Part shown: positions 3,320-21,436 of the stretch, piece after piece
Layout of the letters: the number at the start of each line of letters is the position of its first letter
How positions within the stretch are numbered: position 1 is the stretch's first letter
DNA from: a virus
DNA: 31,769 nucleotides
Virus record (IMG/VR): IMGVR_UViG_3300009506_000789
Coordinates: 1-31,769 of that record
Reading direction: 5' to 3' (one strand)
The notes under the pieces: model-generated
Databases searched by the model: none
The model's input: only the letters and a program-made list of their open reading frames with translations
What the model was told of the DNA's origin: nothing
Program-made: the position numbers and the translations under genes

Positions 3320-3715
3320 CTACGCCTGCGTGGGATGCTGAAACGCCCACGAAACGACTGTCACGTCCACTGCCGTATCAATCGTCGTTGTGTCCAGAAT
3401 CATCTGGGCGCCGGATCCAGAAAGACCGCACGATCCCCGCCATAGTTCGCCGCCGCCAGAGTCCTTCACGACGTAATGATGCGCAGTTCCATTGGCGACC
3501 GGCGTTTCAGTCATTCCACTTAAGTCGGCATACGCTCTCGCCTTGGGTGGCGAGCCGCCATCGGTAGCGCTGTCTCCGAAAGCTGGAGTATTGAGCGAGT
3601 AAGAGACGAGCACCGTTTCAGATACATCTCTTACCTCCAAGTCGCCACCGTCAGCCAGATCAACAATCGCATCATTGGCCGCGATTGCGACTCCAATTGA
3701 CAAAGTAATTGCCAT
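3320..3715 (-). CDS. Small phage structural protein, 131 aa, unknown
   Basis: ATG at 3715 with GAGGGA close upstream. The protein (MAITLSIGVAIAANDAIVDL at its start) is almost entirely short beta strands with Gly/Asp/Thr turns, with no signal peptide or membrane segment. The segment TAHHYVVKDSGGGELWRGSC resembles small beta-sandwich phage proteins that sit next to fibre genes. It lies 11 bases downstream of another small beta protein and 20 bases upstream of a beta-helix protein, so a virion decoration or fibre-adaptor role is likely by context only. I do not recognise a named family. Confidence 0.7.
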   Translation of the reverse strand: MAITLSIGVAIAANDAIVDLADGGDLEVRDVSETVLVSYSLNTPAFGDSATDGGSPPKARAYADLSGMTETPVANGTAHHYVVKDSGGGELWRGSCGLSGSGAQMILDTTTIDTAVDVTVVSWAFQHPTQA

Positions 3716-6321: not shown

Positions 6322-6851
6322 TAAATACTAGATCCCAGCATGGCGATGTCGTATTGAATCCCCTGAACTGCATCAGGAGCCCTGATTCGCAGAATGTCCG
6401 AAGAATCAGCCGTCACCGGGTAGCCGGCCGCACTTGGTGCGACAAACAGGACGATGCCCTCTGGTTCGATTAGGACGGCATCATCAGAACCCTTTAGCCA
6501 ACCGGCCCAGGGATTGGCCGCAGCGCCTCCGACCTCCGCCGTCGCGTCTGGATCTGTGGACAAGAGTTGGATGGCAAACGCGCGGATCCTTGCCACGATA
6601 AACTGTCCACCAAAGATGTCTTCGAGAACACCTGAAGTCAGATCCAAGTCATCATTGCTCGCCGCGGCCACTGTCCGACGATCGTGGAACAACTTGTCAA
6701 ACTGGCCCTTTCCCGTCCCGTCCGTGAACCGCATGACCAGCGCCAGTGCGTTGGAATCCCGCGCCGATCGGTCGGAGTCACCGTCGATCTTGTAGTGGTT
6801 CCAGCCGAAGCTGATCCCGATTTCCGCACTCAGTTCATACGTGAAACTCAT
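6321..6851 (-). CDS. Phage structural-type protein, 176 aa, unknown
   Basis: ATG at 6851 with a G-rich stretch (GGGGGAA) about 8 bases upstream. The protein begins with a beta pattern (SFTYELSAEIGISFGWNHYK) and ends GIQYDIAMLGSSI. It is mixed alpha/beta, acidic, with no signal peptide or membrane segment. The C-terminal part GIVLFVAPSAAGYPVTADSS then ILRIRAPDAVQGIQYDIAML resembles small beta-sandwich virion proteins. Its stop overlaps the start of the long repeat protein (TAATG), so the two are probably translated together and may act together, for example as an anchor and its fibre. I cannot name a family. Confidence 0.7.
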   Translation of the reverse strand: MSFTYELSAEIGISFGWNHYKIDGDSDRSARDSNALALVMRFTDGTGKGQFDKLFHDRRTVAAASNDDLDLTSGVLEDIFGGQFIVARIRAFAIQLLSTDPDATAEVGGAAANPWAGWLKGSDDAVLIEPEGIVLFVAPSAAGYPVTADSSDILRIRAPDAVQGIQYDIAMLGSSI

Positions 6852-6888
6852 CTATCGTTCCCCCAAACTGGGTTCAGTCGCAATCGAC

Positions 6889-7404
6889 TCACTGGCTGAC
6901 AAACGGCACCCCCGTAGACATCGGCTGCGGAGAGAAAAACGGCGTGGACCGAGTGACGGACTTGGCCCGCCAGTCTGATGGGGAGATGCGTTCGCCAGAC
7001 TGCCAGAGGCCGATCTGGCGGCTCTCGGCCCACGCCTGATGCCGCACGAGGCGGCTGGTGGTGGATTCTGTCTGTGCGGCCCACGCCCATCCTAGCCGCA
7101 CCATTGCCTCCGAGGCGTCCATTCCGGCCCAGCTTAGGCTCCCAGTCCATCGATTGCCCCCGAGCCTCCTGAGGCCTTCCAGGCGGCACACGCGACCCTC
7201 GCAGAGCACCCGTAACCACCCCCTGGCCTGCGGTCCCCACTGCTGATCCATCTCGGGAGCGTCGATCCCGGCCAGGTCCAGCTCCCGGCCGTCGGCCAAC
7301 GTCACGGTGTCGCCGTCAACCACGCGCACGACGACGATGTCCTGCGCCGCCGCGGCCGTGCAACAGGACATCAGGAGCCAGAGTGTAAGGACAAAATCAC
7401 GCAA
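6889..7404 (-). CDS. Secreted staphylococcal-nuclease-fold protein, 171 aa, one catalytic Arg replaced
   Basis: The start chosen is a TTG at 7404, 6 bases after a GGAG and overlapping the peptidase stop by 8 bases; longer starts lie inside the peptidase gene. Residues 1-20 are a signal peptide (RDFVLTLWLLMSCCTAAAA). The rest is a thermonuclease (SNase) domain: VVDGDTVTL, GIDAPEMD, then GNRWTGSL and IGLW. By alignment with staphylococcal nuclease the Ca-binding Asp (D32, D48), the catalytic Glu (E51) and the second Arg (R85) are present, but the first catalytic Arg (R35 of the classical enzyme) is Asp (D43, in ELDLAGIDAPE). Export of a nuclease from a phage operon suggests degradation of external DNA or a surface role. 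Activity is uncertain because of the missing Arg. A Cys pair near the signal peptide end is not a good lipobox. Confidence 0.8.
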   Translation of the reverse strand: MRDFVLTLWLLMSCCTAAAAQDIVVVRVVDGDTVTLADGRELDLAGIDAPEMDQQWGPQARGWLRVLCEGRVCRLEGLRRLGGNRWTGSLSWAGMDASEAMVRLGWAWAAQTESTTSRLVRHQAWAESRQIGLWQSGERISPSDWRAKSVTRSTPFFSPQPMSTGVPFVSQ

Positions 7405-9319
7405 AGTAATTCTCCGGCTTAGCCCGTTCGGACGGCCAACCGTCAAACAGGCTGTATGCGAACACCTCGGTATCCGAGCTGGCAACCTCCCGCTCCAACG
7501 ATTCGCACGTCACCCAGCCGCCGCCGTCTGGTCCGTCGAGCTGCTTCCCATGAGCACGGCCCCACTGGTTGCGACGATACAGGCACCACTCAGGCTGCGT
7601 GTCGAATGACAGAAAAGACATCTGGTGTGGCCATTGATCCGTTCCCTGGAACCAACTCTTTCCGCGGTCATCCTTAAGGGCCATCGAATAACCCCGCATG
7701 GAAGCGATGGTCACAAAGTAGCCGTTGCAGACTGCATCGACGATGGACTGAACGTCCCGCAACCTGGCAGTTCGTTTGATGAGGTGTTCCGCCGACTCAG
7801 TGAAGAACGGGGAGAGGTTGGATTTTGAATATCCCCAGCCATCGGCTACGGTTCCAGAGTATGCCGGAACTCCTTGGTAGTCTCTCCGAAGGACCCCGTA
7901 CTTGACCACGGTGTCCGCCATCCAAACACCCAGGCTACCGGCCTCTCGCCCCAATCGACCGTTGCCACCTTCCGGCATCAACCGAGAGATGCCATAGAGC
8001 CACGGAGGAAATGGAACCTTGAACCCTTCTATCTGTCGACAGCGCACGATCTCCCATGCCGCGACGGCCGCGATTGCGATGGCGGCACCGAACGATACGC
8101 AATTATGGACGATGTGACCATTGGCCACAAATGCATGATCTTTGTGAGCCACTCCGATGTCGTAAACTTCGTGCGGACCTTCGATGTACTTTACTTCGGC
8201 CACTCGCTTGCAGATGAACGAATCGTCTCTCCAAATCTCTCCGCGTCGTGTCTTGAACCAGGTGACCCGATAAAGTGGTTTTGCATTTGGGTACGTTCCG
8301 TTTGACCGAAACATTTCAGAGATTCTCGGTTCATAACCAGCGTGAATCAAACTGATGTTGACGCCCCTGACGAGACTGAGGCTCGTCGAGTCGAAATAAT
8401 TCCTGCCGTTTGCCTTGAATCCGTCAGCTGCTAGCAATCCGTTCACGAAATTTAGGTCGCCAATGTATTGCTCCGGAAACTTCTTCGATCCGTCCTCAGA
8501 ATAGAACCACTTCCTGAGGACATCTGCAAGACTTTTGGAATGGACGCGAACTCTGAGGCAATCCCTATCTGACACATAGCCAGTCGTGCGCGGGCGGTAT
8601 CCGGCATTCTGAAAGGCTGCTTCGAGCCACCTGGCGACATCATCAGTCGGCGTAGCGATTTCCACGGATCCATTGGCTGCGTAACCATTTCCCGCAAAAT
8701 AACCGAGCAAAAAGTGGTCGAGACCCAAATCAACTCCGTCCCTCTTGGGTAACGCATAGTGAGCTGGTTCCAGCACCAGATCACCAGGCCGCAATTCTCC
8801 CGCAGTTGTCCACTGAGCATGTCGAGTCTCGAATGCCGCAGCTACTTTCGTTGAATGCGACTGTTCATACCTGGCGCGCGTGACTGTCTTCCCTTCGACA
8901 GTAGGAATCCTGTAGACCAGAAAACAATGGTCCTCCGTCGTTTTGATCGGCAATCCACCGCGGACCTTCACTTCCACAAGTGGCTTTGATACTTTTTTGA
9001 CCGCCGTGCTGATCACGGTGGTCTGAGTGCCATCCGATGCTGTGACACTGTCACCAACTTTGATATCACAAATTCGCTTTGGCTGTGGCCCATCCACGAT
9101 CGTGTCAGCAGCCAAGCAATCGCCCGTCTGCTGCTCGTAGAGGATTGACTGATTGATATCGAAGCCGAGCGTCTTCCAAGCATCCCACGCGCATGTGCGA
9201 GTCGGAGTGACCGTCGGTCCAGTCAACGCGAACGGCTGAAACCGATGGCGCATCAAGGCCCAGGCCTGTCGAGCCTCCGCTGGGCCACGCCAACCGAACT
9301 TTCGATCACCGCTGGGCAT
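7397..9319 (-). CDS. Papain-like (C1) cysteine peptidase interrupted at the active-site Cys by an intein
   Basis: ATG at 9319 is chosen because GAGGGA lies about 8 bases upstream; a longer TTG start is less likely. The precursor is 640 residues: N-extein 1-67, intein 68-406, C-extein 407-640, giving a 301-residue spliced protein. Joining the exteins gives YEQQTGD-CVSFGAAIA, the active-site block of C1 peptidases (oxyanion Gln then Cys followed by x-S-F). The catalytic His is H565 (QWPHQMSF) and the Asn is N584 in YRRNQWG, the counterpart of NSWG in papain. Family members cleave peptide bonds. No signal peptide is seen, so the peptidase acts inside the cell, in the virion, or is released by lysis. 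It overlaps both neighbours (the secreted PDPDP protein and the secreted nuclease), so it belongs to one module. Its substrate is unknown. Confidence 0.9.
   Translation of the reverse strand: MPSGDRKFGWRGPAEARQAWALMRHRFQPFALTGPTVTPTRTCAWDAWKTLGFDINQSILYEQQTGDCLAADTIVDGPQPKRICDIKVGDSVTASDGTQTTVISTAVKKVSKPLVEVKVRGGLPIKTTEDHCFLVYRIPTVEGKTVTRARYEQSHSTKVAAAFETRHAQWTTAGELRPGDLVLEPAHYALPKRDGVDLGLDHFLLGYFAGNGYAANGSVEIATPTDDVARWLEAAFQNAGYRPRTTGYVSDRDCLRVRVHSKSLADVLRKWFYSEDGSKKFPEQYIGDLNFVNGLLAADGFKANGRNYFDSTSLSLVRGVNISLIHAGYEPRISEMFRSNGTYPNAKPLYRVTWFKTRRGEIWRDDSFICKRVAEVKYIEGPHEVYDIGVAHKDHAFVANGHIVHNCVSFGAAIAIAAVAAWEIVRCRQIEGFKVPFPPWLYGISRLMPEGGNGRLGREAGSLGVWMADTVVKYGVLRRDYQGVPAYSGTVADGWGYSKSNLSPFFTESAEHLIKRTARLRDVQSIVDAVCNGYFVTIASMRGYSMALKDDRGKSWFQGTDQWPHQMSFLSFDTQPEWCLYRRNQWGRAHGKQLDGPDGGGWVTCESLEREVASSDTEVFAYSLFDGWPSERAKPENYFA
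8102..9118 (-). other. Intein, 339 aa, with LAGLIDADG endonuclease domain
   Basis: The element starts at Cys (codon 9118-9116; CLAADTIVDG) and ends at His-Asn (HN; Asn codon 8104-8102) followed by Cys+1. Splicing blocks are all visible: block A CLAADTIVDG with the KVGDSV turn, block B LPIKTTEDHCFLV with its T-x-x-H, block F HEVYDIGVAHKDHAFV, block G NGHIVHN-C. All residues needed for class 1 splicing (Cys1, block B His, penultimate His, terminal Asn, Cys+1) are present. Between B and F lies a homing endonuclease with two LAGLIDADG motifs: LLGYFAGNG (precursor residues 204-212) and VNGLLAADG (292-300). The first has Asn (N211) where the metal-binding Asp is expected; the second keeps Asp (D299). 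Splicing is therefore likely intact while endonuclease activity may be reduced or lost. Confidence 0.93.
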
Positions 9320-9965
9320 TGGAGAGTCCCTCGCCAATCTCACGCAGCACAACGCCGTATTGCTTCACCGTCGTCACCTTTCCGTCTTTGATCAACTGGT
9401 CTACCGCATCCCCGACATCGTAGAGGAACGGTCGCCACGCGACCTCGAGCGCCCCGAGATCCGTGCGGTTTTTCTGCGTGACTTGTTCCCTGGCCGCCTC
9501 GATTGTCTTGATGCTGCCGGATGCCACCGCTGATGCCGTCGAAGTGAAGTTGCCGCCGATCTTTGCCATCAGTTGTCGGCCATTGGCTTCAATCCACCGA
9601 CTCGCCTCACGCGAGACCTCGACCATACCGAACGAACCTGGATCAGGATCTGGGTCAGGATCCGGCCCGGGTGTTGCCAGGATCTCAAAGACAAACTGGA
9701 ACGGCTGATCGTTTTCGATGCCATAGATCAGATAACTCCCAGGCGGCCCGTTGAACACCAGCCATCGTTCGCTGCTTTGGCCGGTGAATGTCTGAGCATA
9801 GACGTTGACAAATTTCCCGTTCACCATGCCGATGACCCAGCAGGCGCCGGAATGTTTGACCGTGACAAACTGATCACGGGGCGACTGACGAGGCGGAACG
9901 ACCTCTGCGCCCCATGACCAGGCCACGGATGAGCAAACCAGCATCAGGCAAAACAAACGAGTCAT
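9306..9965 (-). CDS. Secreted protein with PDPDPDPDP linker, 219 aa
   Basis: I place the start at the ATG at 9965, whose ATGA overlaps the stop of the small membrane ORF; an ATG three codons earlier is the alternative. Residues 1-20 form a signal peptide (MTRLFCLMLVCSSVAWSWGA). Residues about 30-96 are a small beta domain (RDQFVTVKHSGACWVIGM, then WLVFNGPPGSYLIYGI), followed by a Pro-Asp linker (PGPDPDPDPDPG, residues 99-110) and an alpha-helical C-terminal domain (about 115-219). I do not recognise either domain. The linker is typical of exported, multi-domain proteins. It is encoded directly upstream of the intein-bearing peptidase, overlapping it by 14 bases, so the two are likely made together and could act together at the cell envelope. 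Confidence 0.78.
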   Translation of the reverse strand: MTRLFCLMLVCSSVAWSWGAEVVPPRQSPRDQFVTVKHSGACWVIGMVNGKFVNVYAQTFTGQSSERWLVFNGPPGSYLIYGIENDQPFQFVFEILATPGPDPDPDPDPGSFGMVEVSREASRWIEANGRQLMAKIGGNFTSTASAVASGSIKTIEAAREQVTQKNRTDLGALEVAWRPFLYDVGDAVDQLIKDGKVTTVKQYGVVLREIGEGLSNAQR

Positions 9966-10472: not shown

Positions 10473-13400
10473 TCAACTTTCGATGGTCGTTTCGTACTTC
10501 CATGTGGGTGTCAGGCCTCCCGTCACGACGACATAGGCCCCGTTGTCCCCCGCGTCTGCATCTAGATCCAGCCAACGATCCCCTTTGTTCCAGGTGACGG
10601 TCGTCGTACTCGGCGGTGTTCCAGTTCCCGCGTACACTTTCCGCGAGCTGCCGTGATTCTTCGTGAGATGCAATTGATCTGCATTGCTGACGGCAACCAC
10701 CGATCCCGCACCCTGCAAGTCGGTCTGATTGTCCGCGTAGACTAACAGACCGCTGCTTTTGATCCAGCTGGCCATTACGTAAAGCGTCGACGCGCCTTCG
10801 TTCACAAATCGATTGTTCTCGACATTCCAACGCGCCGTTGACGGGATAGAGGTAAAGTAAATGAACGTGGACAGATTGTTCGACAACCTGCAATCCTGGA
10901 CGACGAGCCGCTCAGCGGTTGAATAGAGATGGATGGAGTAATTGTCGGAGGCATCCTTGCCGATGCGCGAATTTCGGACGTCGAACAGTTCCAGGAGCCC
11001 GTACACGTAGCTTGTCCCGCTGCCGACGGAAGACAACGCCTTGGCCGATCCGCCGTATGTTTCGCTGATCTGCAAGTCCGCACCGCTGGGATTGCGGACA
11101 AAGTAGATTGTCTCTGGATTGATTCCGGTGGGCAGATTGGCAGGCGTGCTGTTGTAGAAAATGCACTTGCGATTCGCCGCCATGCCGTGACTGCCACTGC
11201 AGGTGATGACGTCCGTCGGATCGTCGATGGAAACCAGATCACGATTCCGTGGCACATACAGCACATTGCCACTCAACTCGCAGCCGTCGATAATCACCCG
11301 ATCGCAATCTTGATAGAGTCCGATGGACGGCTCATCGTTGGTGCCGTTCGTCGGATGGTAAATCCTGGAGTCTCGAACAATGGTTTCGACGACGTTCCAT
11401 AGTTCCAAGGCTCCGCTGCTGGCCGGCAAGTCGAAGTTAGGCAGATCCATCACCAGCTGGTCAATCGAGAGCCGATCCAGATATCCTGGACTTCCTGTGT
11501 TGTATATCCGAATTCGCCCATAGGCTGCGGTAGATGCGTAGACGTACTGATCCGTGATGCTCAGTGACTTTGTGCTACTCGCAAAATTGCCGTAAATGGA
11601 AATGATGTCGTCGAACGATCGACAGCTGTTCAAAACACAGTCATCGCCAGTGACGCGTACAGCTGCATAGCAATCATGATTGTTTCTCGTGACGCACCGA
11701 TGCGCCCGAGCACGATTTCCTGCGAGCGTCAGGCCAAAACAATTGCTTGTCGATGCTGTAGTATAAGCGTTCTCGAAAATGCAGTCTTCGATCTCAGCAT
11801 CATCTCCGACGATGCTGACGAGCTGCCCATACTCTGTATTCGTCCCGCTGGCGACTCCGTCAAAGTCGATGTTTTCAACCCGGAATCTATCGCCGTCGAT
11901 GTAGAGTAGATATCTCGTGTTGGCGGTGTCTGATCCTCGGTAGATCCTCGGTTTGACTCCTGCACCGCGCACGGTGATGTCATCCAGAGAGATCGTGACG
12001 TATGACGTCAGCCCGCAGCCACCCTTGGGAATGATGATTGTGTCGCCAGCAGAGGCAGCAGCTACGGCAGCCGCGAGAGTGTCGTAAGATGAAAGAATGC
12101 CATCAGATTCCAGCACAACCTTGTAATCATCGTCTCCCGTCTGAACATAGCCATCGTCCGTCAGGTTGTGATTGGCATAGGCCGCCCAAAAGGCCGCGGA
12201 TTCCCCATAGGCATCGTCGAAGATTGACGTTCCTGATCCGTAGCCCCTAGCCGTGTTTCCGGCGATCTCGACGTCTGATACATCAGCGCCGATGACCGCG
12301 ATCGCAGAGCTGTTTGTTCCCTTCGGAAGTCGATTGTTTGTGACTTGAATGCCGGAACCCGGAAGATGATAACCTTCAACGTAGTTCGTCCCGCCAGTTG
12401 TGGTGAAAGTGATCGGCGTGCCATTCTTTGCCGCCGACACCTTCATCTGTGTGGTCGACGGCACGGCGACGACCCAGTAATGAGTCCCAGGCGTGATTTG
12501 TGCTGGCAGGCCAGTATTCTCGCGGAAGCGGACTCGGCAGGTGACTTTCATGCCATGCGCTGCGCTGGTCGTAAGCGTATCTCCGGTGAAATCCGTTACC
12601 GTGCTGGTGGAAATGGCTCCCAACTGAATCGCCGTGGCTCGACGATGTGGCGATGTGCCACTTTCTTTTCCGCAATCAATGACGTCGTTGTCGTCGATCA
12701 CGTTGTTTGACCCGGCCAGCAGAATCCCAGCATATCGGCAATCGCGGATCACGTTTCTACGAACTTGGCAATTGTTGGTGTAGACTTCGTAATCCTGCCA
12801 ATCAGTTCGCCCGGAGCCATTTGATCCGCGAATTCCAACGGCAACGCGTTCGATGTAGTTCCCCTCAACGCATGTATTTGAGCCGCTGAGAATGATGCCG
12901 TCGCTGCTGACTGGTTTCCCATCGCTTCCCTTATATCCACCCAGAATCGTGTTTCTGATGACTCGCGCGTCCTTACAGCGAATCTGAATCCCAACGTTAT
13001 TTGTCGTGCCGGTCAAGAGGATCAGGTTGTTGGAATACTCCAATCCACAGTCCCCCTCCGCGTGCGTGTCCAGAATCACTCGCTCATCCCAGTCTGGGGG
13101 ATTTCCTGGATCTGGCTCCAGATTGACCGTTGGTGCGAAACAGACATTGCCGTCAATCTTCACATTCAACACGGATCCGCGACGATCATAGCTGCCGACA
13201 TTCTCGCCGATCGTCGTCACCGCGTGGCGGCTGCCGCAGAGGTAGCTTCCGCGAATTTTGCCGCCGTTGACGGTGTTCAATGTGATCCCGTAGGTGCCAT
13301 CATAACCGTCTGCGGTGTTGGTTTGTCCGAGCAACCCGTAGCAATCCACGTCGATATCGGCACAATACCTAAAGGCGAGAGAACCGACCCCCTGTCTCGA

Positions 13401-14108
13401 TGTTCTGACGTTGTAAACCCGCGGCTGCAGCGCACCGCAGATGTAGAACATGGTCTTGTAATTTCCTGGCAGGGATCCGCTGTCCCATTCCACGGCGATG
13501 TTGGAGATCATGATTCCGTCATATAACGACAAGACCGCCATCAGTGGCGAGGTCGTCATGTATTCGATGACGGGATCAGAGACATGCCCGTATCCGCCGT
13601 TTCCGTCCCATTCATAGACTTGGTGGATCTCCATCGGGTACTGATAGGCATCCCAGCCATTGTGAGCCGCGAGTCCCTGCTTGCCGTCGCTGGACCATAG
13701 CGCCACCCAATCACCGTCTGCTAACGTGACTCCGCTAGGTGCAAAGCGATCCGCATAGGCTGATTCCATCGAGAATGAATAGGTGGTTCCACCGGCTGGA
13801 GAAAAGCTGTAATTCCAGACGATCGGGAACGGACTGGCAGTGCATCGGCAGAGGATCCTGGCGCTGGGAGTCAGTCCCATCAGCTGCTGGTTTCCGACAA
13901 AGGAAAGCTGCGTCGTCTGGATGACATCACCATCCAGAATCAGCCGTCCAGTTCCCCAACTGTTCAACTGAGTGAGTGCCGCCTGCAGCAAATCGTCATC
14001 CGTATCCCATGCACCCGTGCCGCGGACGACAATGTCCTTGTCGCCGTATCCCAACCGATCCGGCCGCCAGTGCTTCGCGTTCGTCAGTGCTACCCACGGC
14101 TCTGCCAT
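10473..14108 (-). CDS. Large double beta-helix tail spike/fibre protein, 1211 aa
   Basis: ATG at 14108 overlaps the upstream stop (TGATG). Two right-handed parallel beta-helix units are visible. The first begins near residue 25 (VRGTGAWDTDDDLLQAALTQ, then GRLILDGDV) and its rungs run to about 625 (for example CVEGNYIERV, QVRRNVIRDC, NVIDDNDVID). The second begins near residue 665 (YDTLAAAVAAASAGDTIIIP) and runs to about 1105 (AEIEDCIFEN, RLVVQDCRLS, RWNVENNRF). Each helix is interrupted by a related insert (about residues 503-580 and 960-1037) with the pattern D-x-I/L-T-x-S-x-x-HGM...LP-x-x-I-x-P-x-T-x-Y-x-V. The C-terminal 50 residues (GTGTPPSTTTVTWNKGDRWL then PTWKY) look like the short end domain seen on trimeric phage fibres. 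Folds of this kind bind or cleave surface glycans; catalysis cannot be shown here. Confidence 0.88.
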   Translation of the reverse strand: MAEPWVALTNAKHWRPDRLGYGDKDIVVRGTGAWDTDDDLLQAALTQLNSWGTGRLILDGDVIQTTQLSFVGNQQLMGLTPSARILCRCTASPFPIVWNYSFSPAGGTTYSFSMESAYADRFAPSGVTLADGDWVALWSSDGKQGLAAHNGWDAYQYPMEIHQVYEWDGNGGYGHVSDPVIEYMTTSPLMAVLSLYDGIMISNIAVEWDSGSLPGNYKTMFYICGALQPRVYNVRTSRQGVGSLAFRYCADIDVDCYGLLGQTNTADGYDGTYGITLNTVNGGKIRGSYLCGSRHAVTTIGENVGSYDRRGSVLNVKIDGNVCFAPTVNLEPDPGNPPDWDERVILDTHAEGDCGLEYSNNLILLTGTTNNVGIQIRCKDARVIRNTILGGYKGSDGKPVSSDGIILSGSNTCVEGNYIERVAVGIRGSNGSGRTDWQDYEVYTNNCQVRRNVIRDCRYAGILLAGSNNVIDDNDVIDCGKESGTSPHRRATAIQLGAISTSTVTDFTGDTLTTSAAHGMKVTCRVRFRENTGLPAQITPGTHYWVVAVPSTTQMKVSAAKNGTPITFTTTGGTNYVEGYHLPGSGIQVTNNRLPKGTNSSAIAVIGADVSDVEIAGNTARGYGSGTSIFDDAYGESAAFWAAYANHNLTDDGYVQTGDDDYKVVLESDGILSSYDTLAAAVAAASAGDTIIIPKGGCGLTSYVTISLDDITVRGAGVKPRIYRGSDTANTRYLLYIDGDRFRVENIDFDGVASGTNTEYGQLVSIVGDDAEIEDCIFENAYTTASTSNCFGLTLAGNRARAHRCVTRNNHDCYAAVRVTGDDCVLNSCRSFDDIISIYGNFASSTKSLSITDQYVYASTAAYGRIRIYNTGSPGYLDRLSIDQLVMDLPNFDLPASSGALELWNVVETIVRDSRIYHPTNGTNDEPSIGLYQDCDRVIIDGCELSGNVLYVPRNRDLVSIDDPTDVITCSGSHGMAANRKCIFYNSTPANLPTGINPETIYFVRNPSGADLQISETYGGSAKALSSVGSGTSYVYGLLELFDVRNSRIGKDASDNYSIHLYSTAERLVVQDCRLSNNLSTFIYFTSIPSTARWNVENNRFVNEGASTLYVMASWIKSSGLLVYADNQTDLQGAGSVVAVSNADQLHLTKNHGSSRKVYAGTGTPPSTTTVTWNKGDRWLDLDADAGDNGAYVVVTGGLTPTWKYETTIES

Positions 14109-18611: not shown

Positions 18612-19021
18612 CAGAGATTCGTGAACAAAAGGGTCCAGCTCACTCGAAGATCGAACATATTCCCAAGGACTAACGGATTTGCAATCGCTAAGTTTCTTCT
18701 CAGGTACACCACTTCGCAGCCGAGCACGATCACGCGGACGTTCTCGAAATCAAAGTCGTAGCTACTCCACACGAGCCGCACGCTCCCTAGTCCTAGCAAC
18801 GATGTGTAGGACGCATACAGTTGCCTTCCCAGTGCCACGCTCGGCACATCGATGATTGACTCCCGCTGGAACGTCGGCGAACGCAGGCCAATGATTCGCA
18901 CCGCGTGGTAATTCACTCCAGGCCTCGTGAACACCTCCGTCCCGTATTGCTGTCGACTCGGCATATCACCAAGCCAATGACGGAACCGATAAGGACCGAG
19001 CATGTCGAGCGTGGTGATCAC
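18611..19021 (-). CDS. Minor tail protein, 136 aa, unknown
   Basis: GTG start at 19021, overlapping the tape-measure stop as GTGA, with GGAG 8 bases upstream. The protein is beta rich with hydrophobic strands (ENVRVIVLGCEVVYLRRNLA, FDLRVSWTLLFTN). Its site, directly after the tape measure, is where siphophages encode the distal tail (Dit or gpM/gpL position) proteins, so a tail-tip adaptor is plausible. No motif confirms it. Confidence 0.7.
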   Translation of the reverse strand: MITTLDMLGPYRFRHWLGDMPSRQQYGTEVFTRPGVNYHAVRIIGLRSPTFQRESIIDVPSVALGRQLYASYTSLLGLGSVRLVWSSYDFDFENVRVIVLGCEVVYLRRNLAIANPLVLGNMFDLRVSWTLLFTNL

Positions 19022-20595
19022 TGCGCCGGCTCCGGTACGCGGGGACGAGTGACCTTGCGCGTGTTCTGCTCAATCTTCTCCATCGCATCCCTGGTGCGGA
19101 GATCAGCCGCGCCAAACGCCTCTTGAAACATCTGAGTGCGAGTGGGTACGTTTCCCGCACCAAAGCTTGGGCTTGGACCGCCGCGAGCCGTCATGATGCG
19201 AGTCAATCCAAGTCGCGCCCAGTTCACGTTTCCTTCTTCGTCATACAGATTCATCCCGAACGGACCTTGGGTCAGTCCCCTTCTGGCCAGTTCGGAAACG
19301 ATCATGCGCTGCCGAACCTCGGTTTTCATCGCCTCGGCATCGAACGACCTCGCTTCCTTAAATGCGCTTTTCTCCTCCTCAATCACTCTCGTCAGCGCCA
19401 TTTCAGGAATCTCGCGCTCGATCTTCGATCGCTTCTCTCGAATCAGGTTTTCATCGGCCATGCCTTTAGCCGCCGCGTCCTGCAAACGCAAAACCTCACC
19501 GTATTGACGAACGAGAGTCAGCAACGCCTCCCTCTGCCTGATCTCGGTGAATCCCACCTGCGTCAGTTTTTCCAGCGAATCGATGTTGGCATCCCGCAGT
19601 TTCTTCAGCCGCTCTTGCTGCGATGCGTCCTCCGCGAGTCCCTGACCTCGGAACCACTGAGCACCAGGACTGACCGCCGACAATGCGATTCCCGCCTGGC
19701 GTGTATAAACTTCAGTTTCTGCGCCCTTCGTCGGTGACAAAGCCGCGGCCACGCCGAGGCCGAATGCCTTGTCCGCAAACGACTGCAGCGCAGGAGCAGC
19801 TGGCGCGATCTCTTTGGCACTCCGACCGGATGCCTCCCCGGCCGCGAAGACGCCTCGGAGCAGGACCTCCGGCACCATACCCTGGCCGGTCGCCTGGATG
19901 CCGATCTCTTTTCCCAACTCAGCTGGGATGCCAACCTCGGTGGCCTCGAAGATGTTCCGCGTAGCCTCCAGCCCGCGCTCGAAACTTCCCAAAGAGGATT
20001 GCATTGCCTGGGCCAGGTCGAAAGCCTCTGCGAATGGTGCCTTGCCTCTCGATACCTCCAGCACGCGGAGTGCTCGCTCCCTCGTGGTGCCTTCCTCTTG
20101 CAACGCCGCGAAAGCCACCATCTCTTTCATCGTCTGCTGTGTCTGCTTGGAAATCTCCTTCTGACTCTGCAGCCAGTTCTCGTGTCCCTTGACAATCACA
20201 CCCACGGCACCGCTGATGGAAGTCAATGGCCCGAGGATTCCGATCAATGCCGTTTTGCCGACGGTGCCGAGCTTCTGCATGGTGCCCTGCAGTTGCCCGG
20301 TCTGCACGGTCATTCGCTGTTTTTCATTTCTGGCCGAGACCAAGCCAGCCTTGTACTCGTCCAGACTGATGCGGTTTTCCTTATAGGCCCGCTTCATCTG
20401 TTCAATGTTGCGCCGGTAGCGTTCCAGAGGCTGCAACTGCTCCTCGAAGGCCCGCTTGGCCATTTGGGCGCCGCGTCGCGTTTCCGCCGCCATCTCCTTG
20501 TACTGATCGTTCAGCTCTCGCGCACCATCTCTGGCCTTCGCCATTGCCTTGAGAAGGTCTTGCGGATCACCGGTCATGGTGATGGTAACGCTCAT
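19018..20595 (-). CDS. Tail tape measure protein, short, 525 aa
   Basis: ATG at 20595. Residues about 25-100 form a long charged helix or coiled coil (LNDQYKEMAAETRRGAQMAK and following), then a hydrophobic patch (TVGKTALIGILGPLTSISGA then VGVIVKG, 112-136), then mostly helical Ala/Glu/Arg-rich sequence to the end. This is the layout of tape measure proteins, which set tail length and carry a membrane-active segment. At 525 residues it is short. At about 0.15 nm per residue the tail would be near 80 nm, an estimate only. The gene follows the chaperone-type gene and precedes the tail-tip genes, the usual place. No peptidase or lysozyme domain is seen. Confidence 0.85.
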   Translation of the reverse strand: MSVTITMTGDPQDLLKAMAKARDGARELNDQYKEMAAETRRGAQMAKRAFEEQLQPLERYRRNIEQMKRAYKENRISLDEYKAGLVSARNEKQRMTVQTGQLQGTMQKLGTVGKTALIGILGPLTSISGAVGVIVKGHENWLQSQKEISKQTQQTMKEMVAFAALQEEGTTRERALRVLEVSRGKAPFAEAFDLAQAMQSSLGSFERGLEATRNIFEATEVGIPAELGKEIGIQATGQGMVPEVLLRGVFAAGEASGRSAKEIAPAAPALQSFADKAFGLGVAAALSPTKGAETEVYTRQAGIALSAVSPGAQWFRGQGLAEDASQQERLKKLRDANIDSLEKLTQVGFTEIRQREALLTLVRQYGEVLRLQDAAAKGMADENLIREKRSKIEREIPEMALTRVIEEEKSAFKEARSFDAEAMKTEVRQRMIVSELARRGLTQGPFGMNLYDEEGNVNWARLGLTRIMTARGGPSPSFGAGNVPTRTQMFQEAFGAADLRTRDAMEKIEQNTRKVTRPRVPEPAQ

Positions 20596-20599
20596 CGAT

Positions 20600-21436
20600 T
20601 CAGTCCGACGGTTGCAACGTCCGCGATAGAGGGGTTATATCCGGGGTTAAGTCCGGCACGCCAACGGGAGAACTCCAGCTCCCTGAAATCATTTCCGTTT
20701 TTTTTTCCGGCTCCTCCGAGTCACTTGGTGAGGTTCGTTGCCACCAGGTCTCCAAGTCCACCACGGCGTTCAGGATCTCGGCGCGGGTTAAATCGTTCAG
20801 AAGATCGAGTAGCCAGACCTCGACGGCGGAGACACGATAATTTGCCTGCAGGGCAGTCACGCACCAGTCGGCCGCCTCCGACTTCGTTAGTTCGATTGTG
20901 TCTCCCTCCTGGGCATCCGTGCGCCGGAAGGAATCCATCAGGAAATCCCACCACTGCTGCGCCACACGGAACAACGGCTCGTAGGGCGACATCACTTCGC
21001 CGTCGATCCACTTCCCCGTCGCTGGATCCAGCGCCATGCGTCTGGGCAGATTAATGAACGGGATCAGTTGACCGCTCGGCATCGCGTGACAGACCCGAGC
21101 AATGGGAACGTGCCAGTGCTTCCCGTCACCCAACTGAACGTCCTTGCCATCCAGCACGCTCTTGCGGACCAAATCAGAGGGTAACGGCTGATGATCGACA
21201 TACCAGCCGATCCAAAGGTTGGACGCTGGGCGCTGACGCCACTGTTGCCGGTCGTGGCACATTCGCACCAGGGCGGTCTGCTGAAGATATCCGCCACCGG
21301 CAATCAAGAGGCCGTCGCCTTTGTCAGGTCCGTTTTGGATCACGTCGGCGTAAATCGCCGGACCCTCAAAGGCGTAGAGCAGTTCCCGCGGAATCTCCCG
21401 CTTGTGCGTGGCCGGCACGTAGTGGATGAACTCCAC
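20600..21436 (-). CDS. Tail assembly chaperone-position protein, 278 aa, with possible frameshift at its end
   Basis: ATG at 21436 (MEFIHYVPATHKREIPRELL). It lies between the tail-tube-like gene and the tape measure, the place of the lambda G/GT tail assembly chaperones. Residues about 70-100 (NLWIGWYVDHQPLPSDLVRK) and 150-240 (helical, SEAADWCVTALQANYRVSAV) contain no motif I can name. The final 35 codons contain an A9 run at 20698-20706 (GAA AAA AAA ACG). A -1 shift there would replace the last 32 residues by 35 others and give a 281-residue product ending at 20592, whose TGA overlaps the tape-measure ATG as ATGA. Normal reading stops 4 bases before that ATG. Assignment to the chaperone class rests on position and this slippery site. 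Confidence 0.7.
   Translation of the reverse strand: MEFIHYVPATHKREIPRELLYAFEGPAIYADVIQNGPDKGDGLLIAGGGYLQQTALVRMCHDRQQWRQRPASNLWIGWYVDHQPLPSDLVRKSVLDGKDVQLGDGKHWHVPIARVCHAMPSGQLIPFINLPRRMALDPATGKWIDGEVMSPYEPLFRVAQQWWDFLMDSFRRTDAQEGDTIELTKSEAADWCVTALQANYRVSAVEVWLLDLLNDLTRAEILNAVVDLETWWQRTSPSDSEEPEKKTEMISGSWSSPVGVPDLTPDITPLSRTLQPSD
20666..20717 (-). promoter_or_regulatory. Putative programmed -1 frameshift site (SD-like, A9 run, hairpin)
   Basis: Reading the minus strand: GGAGGAG (20717-20711), CCGG, nine A (20706-20698), then 14 bases and a 5-bp hairpin (GGGAG 20683-20679, loop of 8, CTCCC 20670-20666). Codons in the normal frame are GAA AAA AAA ACG, giving the A-AAA-AAA heptamer used by dnaX and several tail-chaperone genes. 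An SD-like sequence just upstream stimulates such slips in known cases. The spacing here is shorter than in dnaX and the hairpin is weak, so efficiency cannot be judged from sequence. Confidence 0.5.

Follow-up and report, generated by a model that had tools for sequence, protein, structure and literature searches.

The likely tail assembly chaperone gene of the phage analyzed here very probably carries a programmed −1 frame change, whichever machine slips. The assignment of this site to the lambda G/GT kind, in a protein family matched by no Pfam or PHROG model, is well supported. The window, i.e. the whole stretch of DNA analyzed, is the entire virus record IMGVR_UViG_3300009506_000789, a metagenome contig of 31,769 bases. 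The initial annotation had proposed a programmed −1 frameshift that gives the gene two C-termini, and the proposal is supported by a conserved A-run together with a conserved −1 extension.

The slippery run of nine A's lies near the end of the chaperone gene at 20706..20698 on the minus strand, in the 0-frame codons GAA AAA AAA ACG, and contains the in-frame heptamer A_AAA_AAA (20705..20699, minus strand). It is the sole A or T run of at least 8 in the 31.8-kb window, where a first-order Markov sequence would be expected to hold about 0.1 A/T runs of at least 9. Past the slip site the 0 frame encodes the tail TEMISGSW...QPSD and its stop (20600..20697, minus strand), and this normal stop, the TGA at 20602..20600, is 4 bases ahead of the tape measure ATG at 20595. 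The same DNA, read after a −1 slip, gives an extension of 35 codons (NGNDFRELEFSRWRAGLNPGYNPSIADVATVGLNR; 20592..20699 with its stop, minus strand), identified by a leave-one-out profile and by conservation, whose TGA at 20594..20592 overlaps the tape measure ATG (20595..20593) as ATGA. The +1 frame closes fast, at a stop about 2 codons further on. The run, the alternative end with its overlapping stop, the spacing of the normal stop and the rapid closure of the +1 frame are all as the initial annotation had described them. The predicted −1 fusion product is 281 aa long, compared with 278 aa for the normal product.

The genes around it are on the minus strand. In listed order there stand a terminase of the gpA type (PF05876), the portal (PF05136), a protease-like and then a decoration-like gene whose roles are suggested by their order, the major head protein (phrog_1005) with small genes next to it, and, just before the chaperone gene, a probable tube gene, so named from gene order. 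The chaperone gene itself (20600..21436, minus strand), recognized from its open frame, position, model and homologues, has a GTG start preceded by the SD-like GGAGGGAGG and encodes the 0-frame product of 278 aa. It stands directly before the tape measure gene (19018..20595, minus strand), the next gene being identified by a match to phrog_1272 (E=8.6e-5). In most relatives, a gene of 450–700 aa begins within about 20 bases of the −1 stop, and the genes after the chaperone gave a tape measure PHROG match in 2 of the 10 tested.

Three further genes of the window, all on the minus strand, deserve mention in their own right. A 651-aa protein (7397..9352) contains an intein at about 9118..8102 (PF14890, E=1.2e-10, with a LAGLIDADG-like domain, PF14528), which sits at QQTGDC/CVSFGAA in what looks like a cysteine peptidase active-site region. 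A 1211-aa protein (10473..14108) has a weak match to a right-handed beta helix (PF13229, E=6.7e-6) and is perhaps a tail spike or fiber. A 130-aa open frame (6848..7240), rich in Arg, Gly and Pro and lying between better genes, is without a family match and may be spurious or a shifted frame.

Comparison of the chaperone gene of the window with Pfam and PHROGs gave no family match, and none of 12 homologues compared with the same collections gave a convincing one. In an AlphaFold model built from a 13-member alignment, the body is predicted with confidence (mean pLDDT 82.2) and the normal-frame tail with low confidence, pLDDT being below 50 at residues 246–276; it fits these values that the normal-frame tail may be mainly an image of the extension's coding in another frame. 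A fold search of the PDB with the model returned no matching solved structure. Compared with the predicted viral proteins of BFVD, the model has tail assembly chaperones as its three highest-ranking structural matches; the first of them has E=6.6e-4 and is partial (TM-score by query length 0.27). The BFVD matches of the predicted model and the position before the tape measure gene suggest that the gene is likely, although not proven, to encode a tail assembly chaperone.

Relatives were not found by searches with the chaperone gene alone or the portal alone, nor did a scan of genome contigs find a relative. Alignment of the terminase led to related phages, three of which have distant chaperone homologues. 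All three carry a homologue of the window's extension, set −1 relative to the body, and their junctions hold runs of A9, A8 and A9. Two profile scans then gave 35 non-redundant members with the extension, i.e. the window and 34 others. The 34 others come from contigs of uncultivated phages, and most members are known from such contigs alone. Identity reaches 68% in the closest pair among the 35 and 53% in the next. Because the scan patterns were built from the body, members were not selected for the extension. One further homologue, L114, is cut off, and three others (L094, L106 and L121) lack an A-run and gave no detectable extension, which is therefore dispensable in some lineages. In these three, the next gene starts directly past the normal stop; they may represent losses, or the extension may be supplied elsewhere.

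In a profile search that took no account of frame, the extension falls in the −1 frame in every member with a significant match, a few loci having been anchored separately so that their −1 frame is read by construction. When the window does not contribute to the profile, its own extension is still recovered at E=1e-9, and the next of the 861 frame fragments of the window scores E=0.4. The extension is mostly 33–50 residues long in the family and has the common motif (F/Y)xRWRxGLxPxYxPTxADL, approximately. Conservation in relatives, a check that the initial annotation had suggested, was confirmed for the alternative end: the protein encoded by the −1 extension is conserved and always in that frame. 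The normal end is conserved neither in sequence nor in length, which varies from 1 to 43 codons past the site, with no conservation between members in the 0-frame tail after the slip site. In L087 (3837) and L103 (3810) the normal frame runs beyond the −1 stop, and the fusion there is not longer than the normal product.

The A-run, whose persistence in relatives had likewise been put forward as a check, is retained at the junction by all members but one (34 of 35), with lengths of A7 (one member, L096), A8 (three), A9 (22) and A10 (eight). The runs start at codon position 1, 2 or 3 in 11, 14 and 9 members, respectively, and an in-frame A_AAA_AAA is present in every one of the 34 (permutation p=0.07). 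The only extension-bearing member without an A-run, L093, has G_GGA_AAC (3462..3468) at the same junction, so that all 35 have an in-frame slippery heptamer of the form X_XXY_YYZ towards the end of their first reading frame, A_AAA_AAA in 34 and G_GGA_AAC in one. The extension of L093 is longer, at about 65 residues. Lysine codons within the runs are 81 AAA to 2 AAG, compared with 57 to 98 elsewhere in the same genes.

On this evidence the slippage is probably mainly ribosomal. The alternative is that RNA polymerase slips on the A9 run, so that part of the mRNA gains one A and ordinary translation gives the same fusion; that RNA polymerase is mainly or partly responsible we consider unlikely. 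Nine, the modal run length in the family, is a known length for RNA polymerase slippage, which keeps this rival in play. Set against a homopolymer length of about nine or more, the 34 runs include 30 of A9 or A10, three of A8 and one of A7, and one member has no run. In codon phases 2 and 3 it is also common for a run to exceed what the heptamer requires. Against this, the direction is −1 in all extension-bearing members, whereas families with confirmed transcriptional slippage have both frame directions, a single direction being the ribosomal criterion of Antonov and colleagues (PMC3711429). In addition, L093 uses G_GGA_AAC, the run of L096 is only A7, and every run holds the in-frame heptamer, short runs being found only where the heptamer is still in frame. 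A stronger form of the alternative, in which the ratio of the chaperone forms is set by RNA polymerase, alone or together with the ribosome, and the family keeps A9 or A10 for this, seems to us a little more doubtful still. If it were true, a tail assembly system would be tuned by transcriptional slippage, and L093 would have switched to a purely ribosomal site.

Two other explanations have very little to recommend them. In a metagenome contig such as the window, where homopolymers are prone to error, a sequencing or assembly error might have removed one A from a gene that truly has a single frame. Random errors, however, would not leave the extension in the −1 frame in independent contigs with four run lengths (A7, A8, A9 and A10) and three codon phases, and L093 lacks a homopolymer altogether; we therefore rejected this very improbable reading. 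It is just as improbable that the extension belongs to no fusion and is translated independently, as a small gene that has a start of its own. An ATG or GTG does occur within the first 18 extension codons in 6 of the 35 members, but ATG, GTG and TTG are all absent there in 25, the window among them, and a separate gene would leave the A-run unexplained; as the window's extension has no start among its first 18 codons, we rejected this reading. A chance A-run beside a chance open frame without function is the least probable of all, for although a 35-codon open frame is unremarkable by itself, the conservation of extension and run across very diverged members refutes it.

The initial annotation had also pointed to two possible stimulators of the frameshift. 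Both are present in the window on the minus strand: the SD-like GGAGGAG at 20717..20711, 4 bases upstream of the run with CCGG between, and a hairpin 14 bases 3′ of the run (20666..20683), formed by GGGAG and CTCCC at 20683..20679 and 20670..20666. An SD that stimulates −1 frameshifting is usually spaced by 10–14 nt, and GGAGGAG is nearer, at 5–7 nt before the heptamer. SD strength across the family was not significantly higher than at local controls (p=0.09), so the motif is not supported as a shared stimulator. The fold downstream of the run in the window is weaker than its shuffles (z +0.7) and also weaker than that of control places within the gene. Averaged over the family, the downstream fold exceeds that of single-base shuffles by a small margin (z −0.55, p=0.02), which is too weak to claim. 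No clear conserved stimulator was found across the family, and neither GGAGGAG nor the hairpin is supported as a part of the mechanism or should be cited as one.

For the ribosomal reading, which we prefer, we propose the following scheme. Most ribosomes would stay in frame across the A9 run and so produce the 278-aa protein. Some would change frame there, most likely by tandem slippage of two tRNA-Lys on A_AAA_AAA, where the pair would re-pair perfectly one base back. The frame-changed reading would give the 281-aa fusion with its conserved, basic and aromatic 35-residue tail, and its translation would terminate at the start codon of the tape measure gene. As in lambda, the tape measure protein may be bound by many copies of the short form, and the extension of the few long forms may bring in the tube protein. 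The site, its −1 frame and the conservation of extension and run are read directly from the aligned sequences; we infer that slippage occurs, its rate and its mainly ribosomal nature, and the analogy suggests that both products would be made, in what ratio and for what role.

Tail chaperone genes are well known to use frameshifting (PMC5009743; PMC10885494), and the −1 frameshift of lambda gpG/gpGT and its counterparts in long-tailed phages are described in work cited in PMC5009743 (Levin 1993; Xu, Hendrix and Duda 2004, 2013, 2014). In the lambda scheme the major short product binds the tape measure protein and the extension of the minor fusion brings in the tube protein (PMC5009743). As with gpG/gpGT, the gene described here stands before the tape measure gene, has its slippery site shortly before the first frame ends, is predicted to give a short form and a fusion, and has a −1 extension that finishes at the tape measure start. 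Unlike gpG/gpGT, the present family is not matched by Pfam or PHROGs, and its first product is larger (about 210–290 aa) and its extension short. The lambda slip site is G_GGA_AAG, whereas the present family has, with few exceptions, eight to ten consecutive A's there. The HK97-type cluster of tail assembly chaperones, for which frameshifting of 6–7% has been measured (PMC3711429), is likewise a case of a phage tail chaperone with a programmed frameshift, here a predicted one. Thermus thermophilus dnaX, where transcriptional slippage takes place on nine A's (PMC1088944, PMC3711429), resembles the present gene in having nine A's within a coding sequence and two products (here predicted). It is, however, a cellular polymerase gene in which slippage shortens the product; the frame change described here has the opposite effect on length and goes in the −1 direction throughout.

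A separate observation concerns a terminase relative, L002 (10604..11352), in which the chaperone position is taken by a different gene of 138 aa. This gene has A_AAA_AAC near its end, and its −1 frame runs on without a stop into a Cys-rich, zinc-finger-like region, which closes as TAATG on a tape-measure-like next gene. This is likely a second, unrelated frameshift.

Frameshifted tail chaperones were already known. The novelty lies in the protein family, in how broad it is and in how regular its site is. Relatives with A7, A8, A9, A10 and G_GGA_AAC seem to do the same job, and so offer a clean test between ribosome and RNA polymerase. The site, an A9 in genes that otherwise avoid A-runs, is regular enough to be used in annotation, and the finding extends the known users of frameshifting by a wide family of chaperone genes that Pfam and PHROG models do not match.
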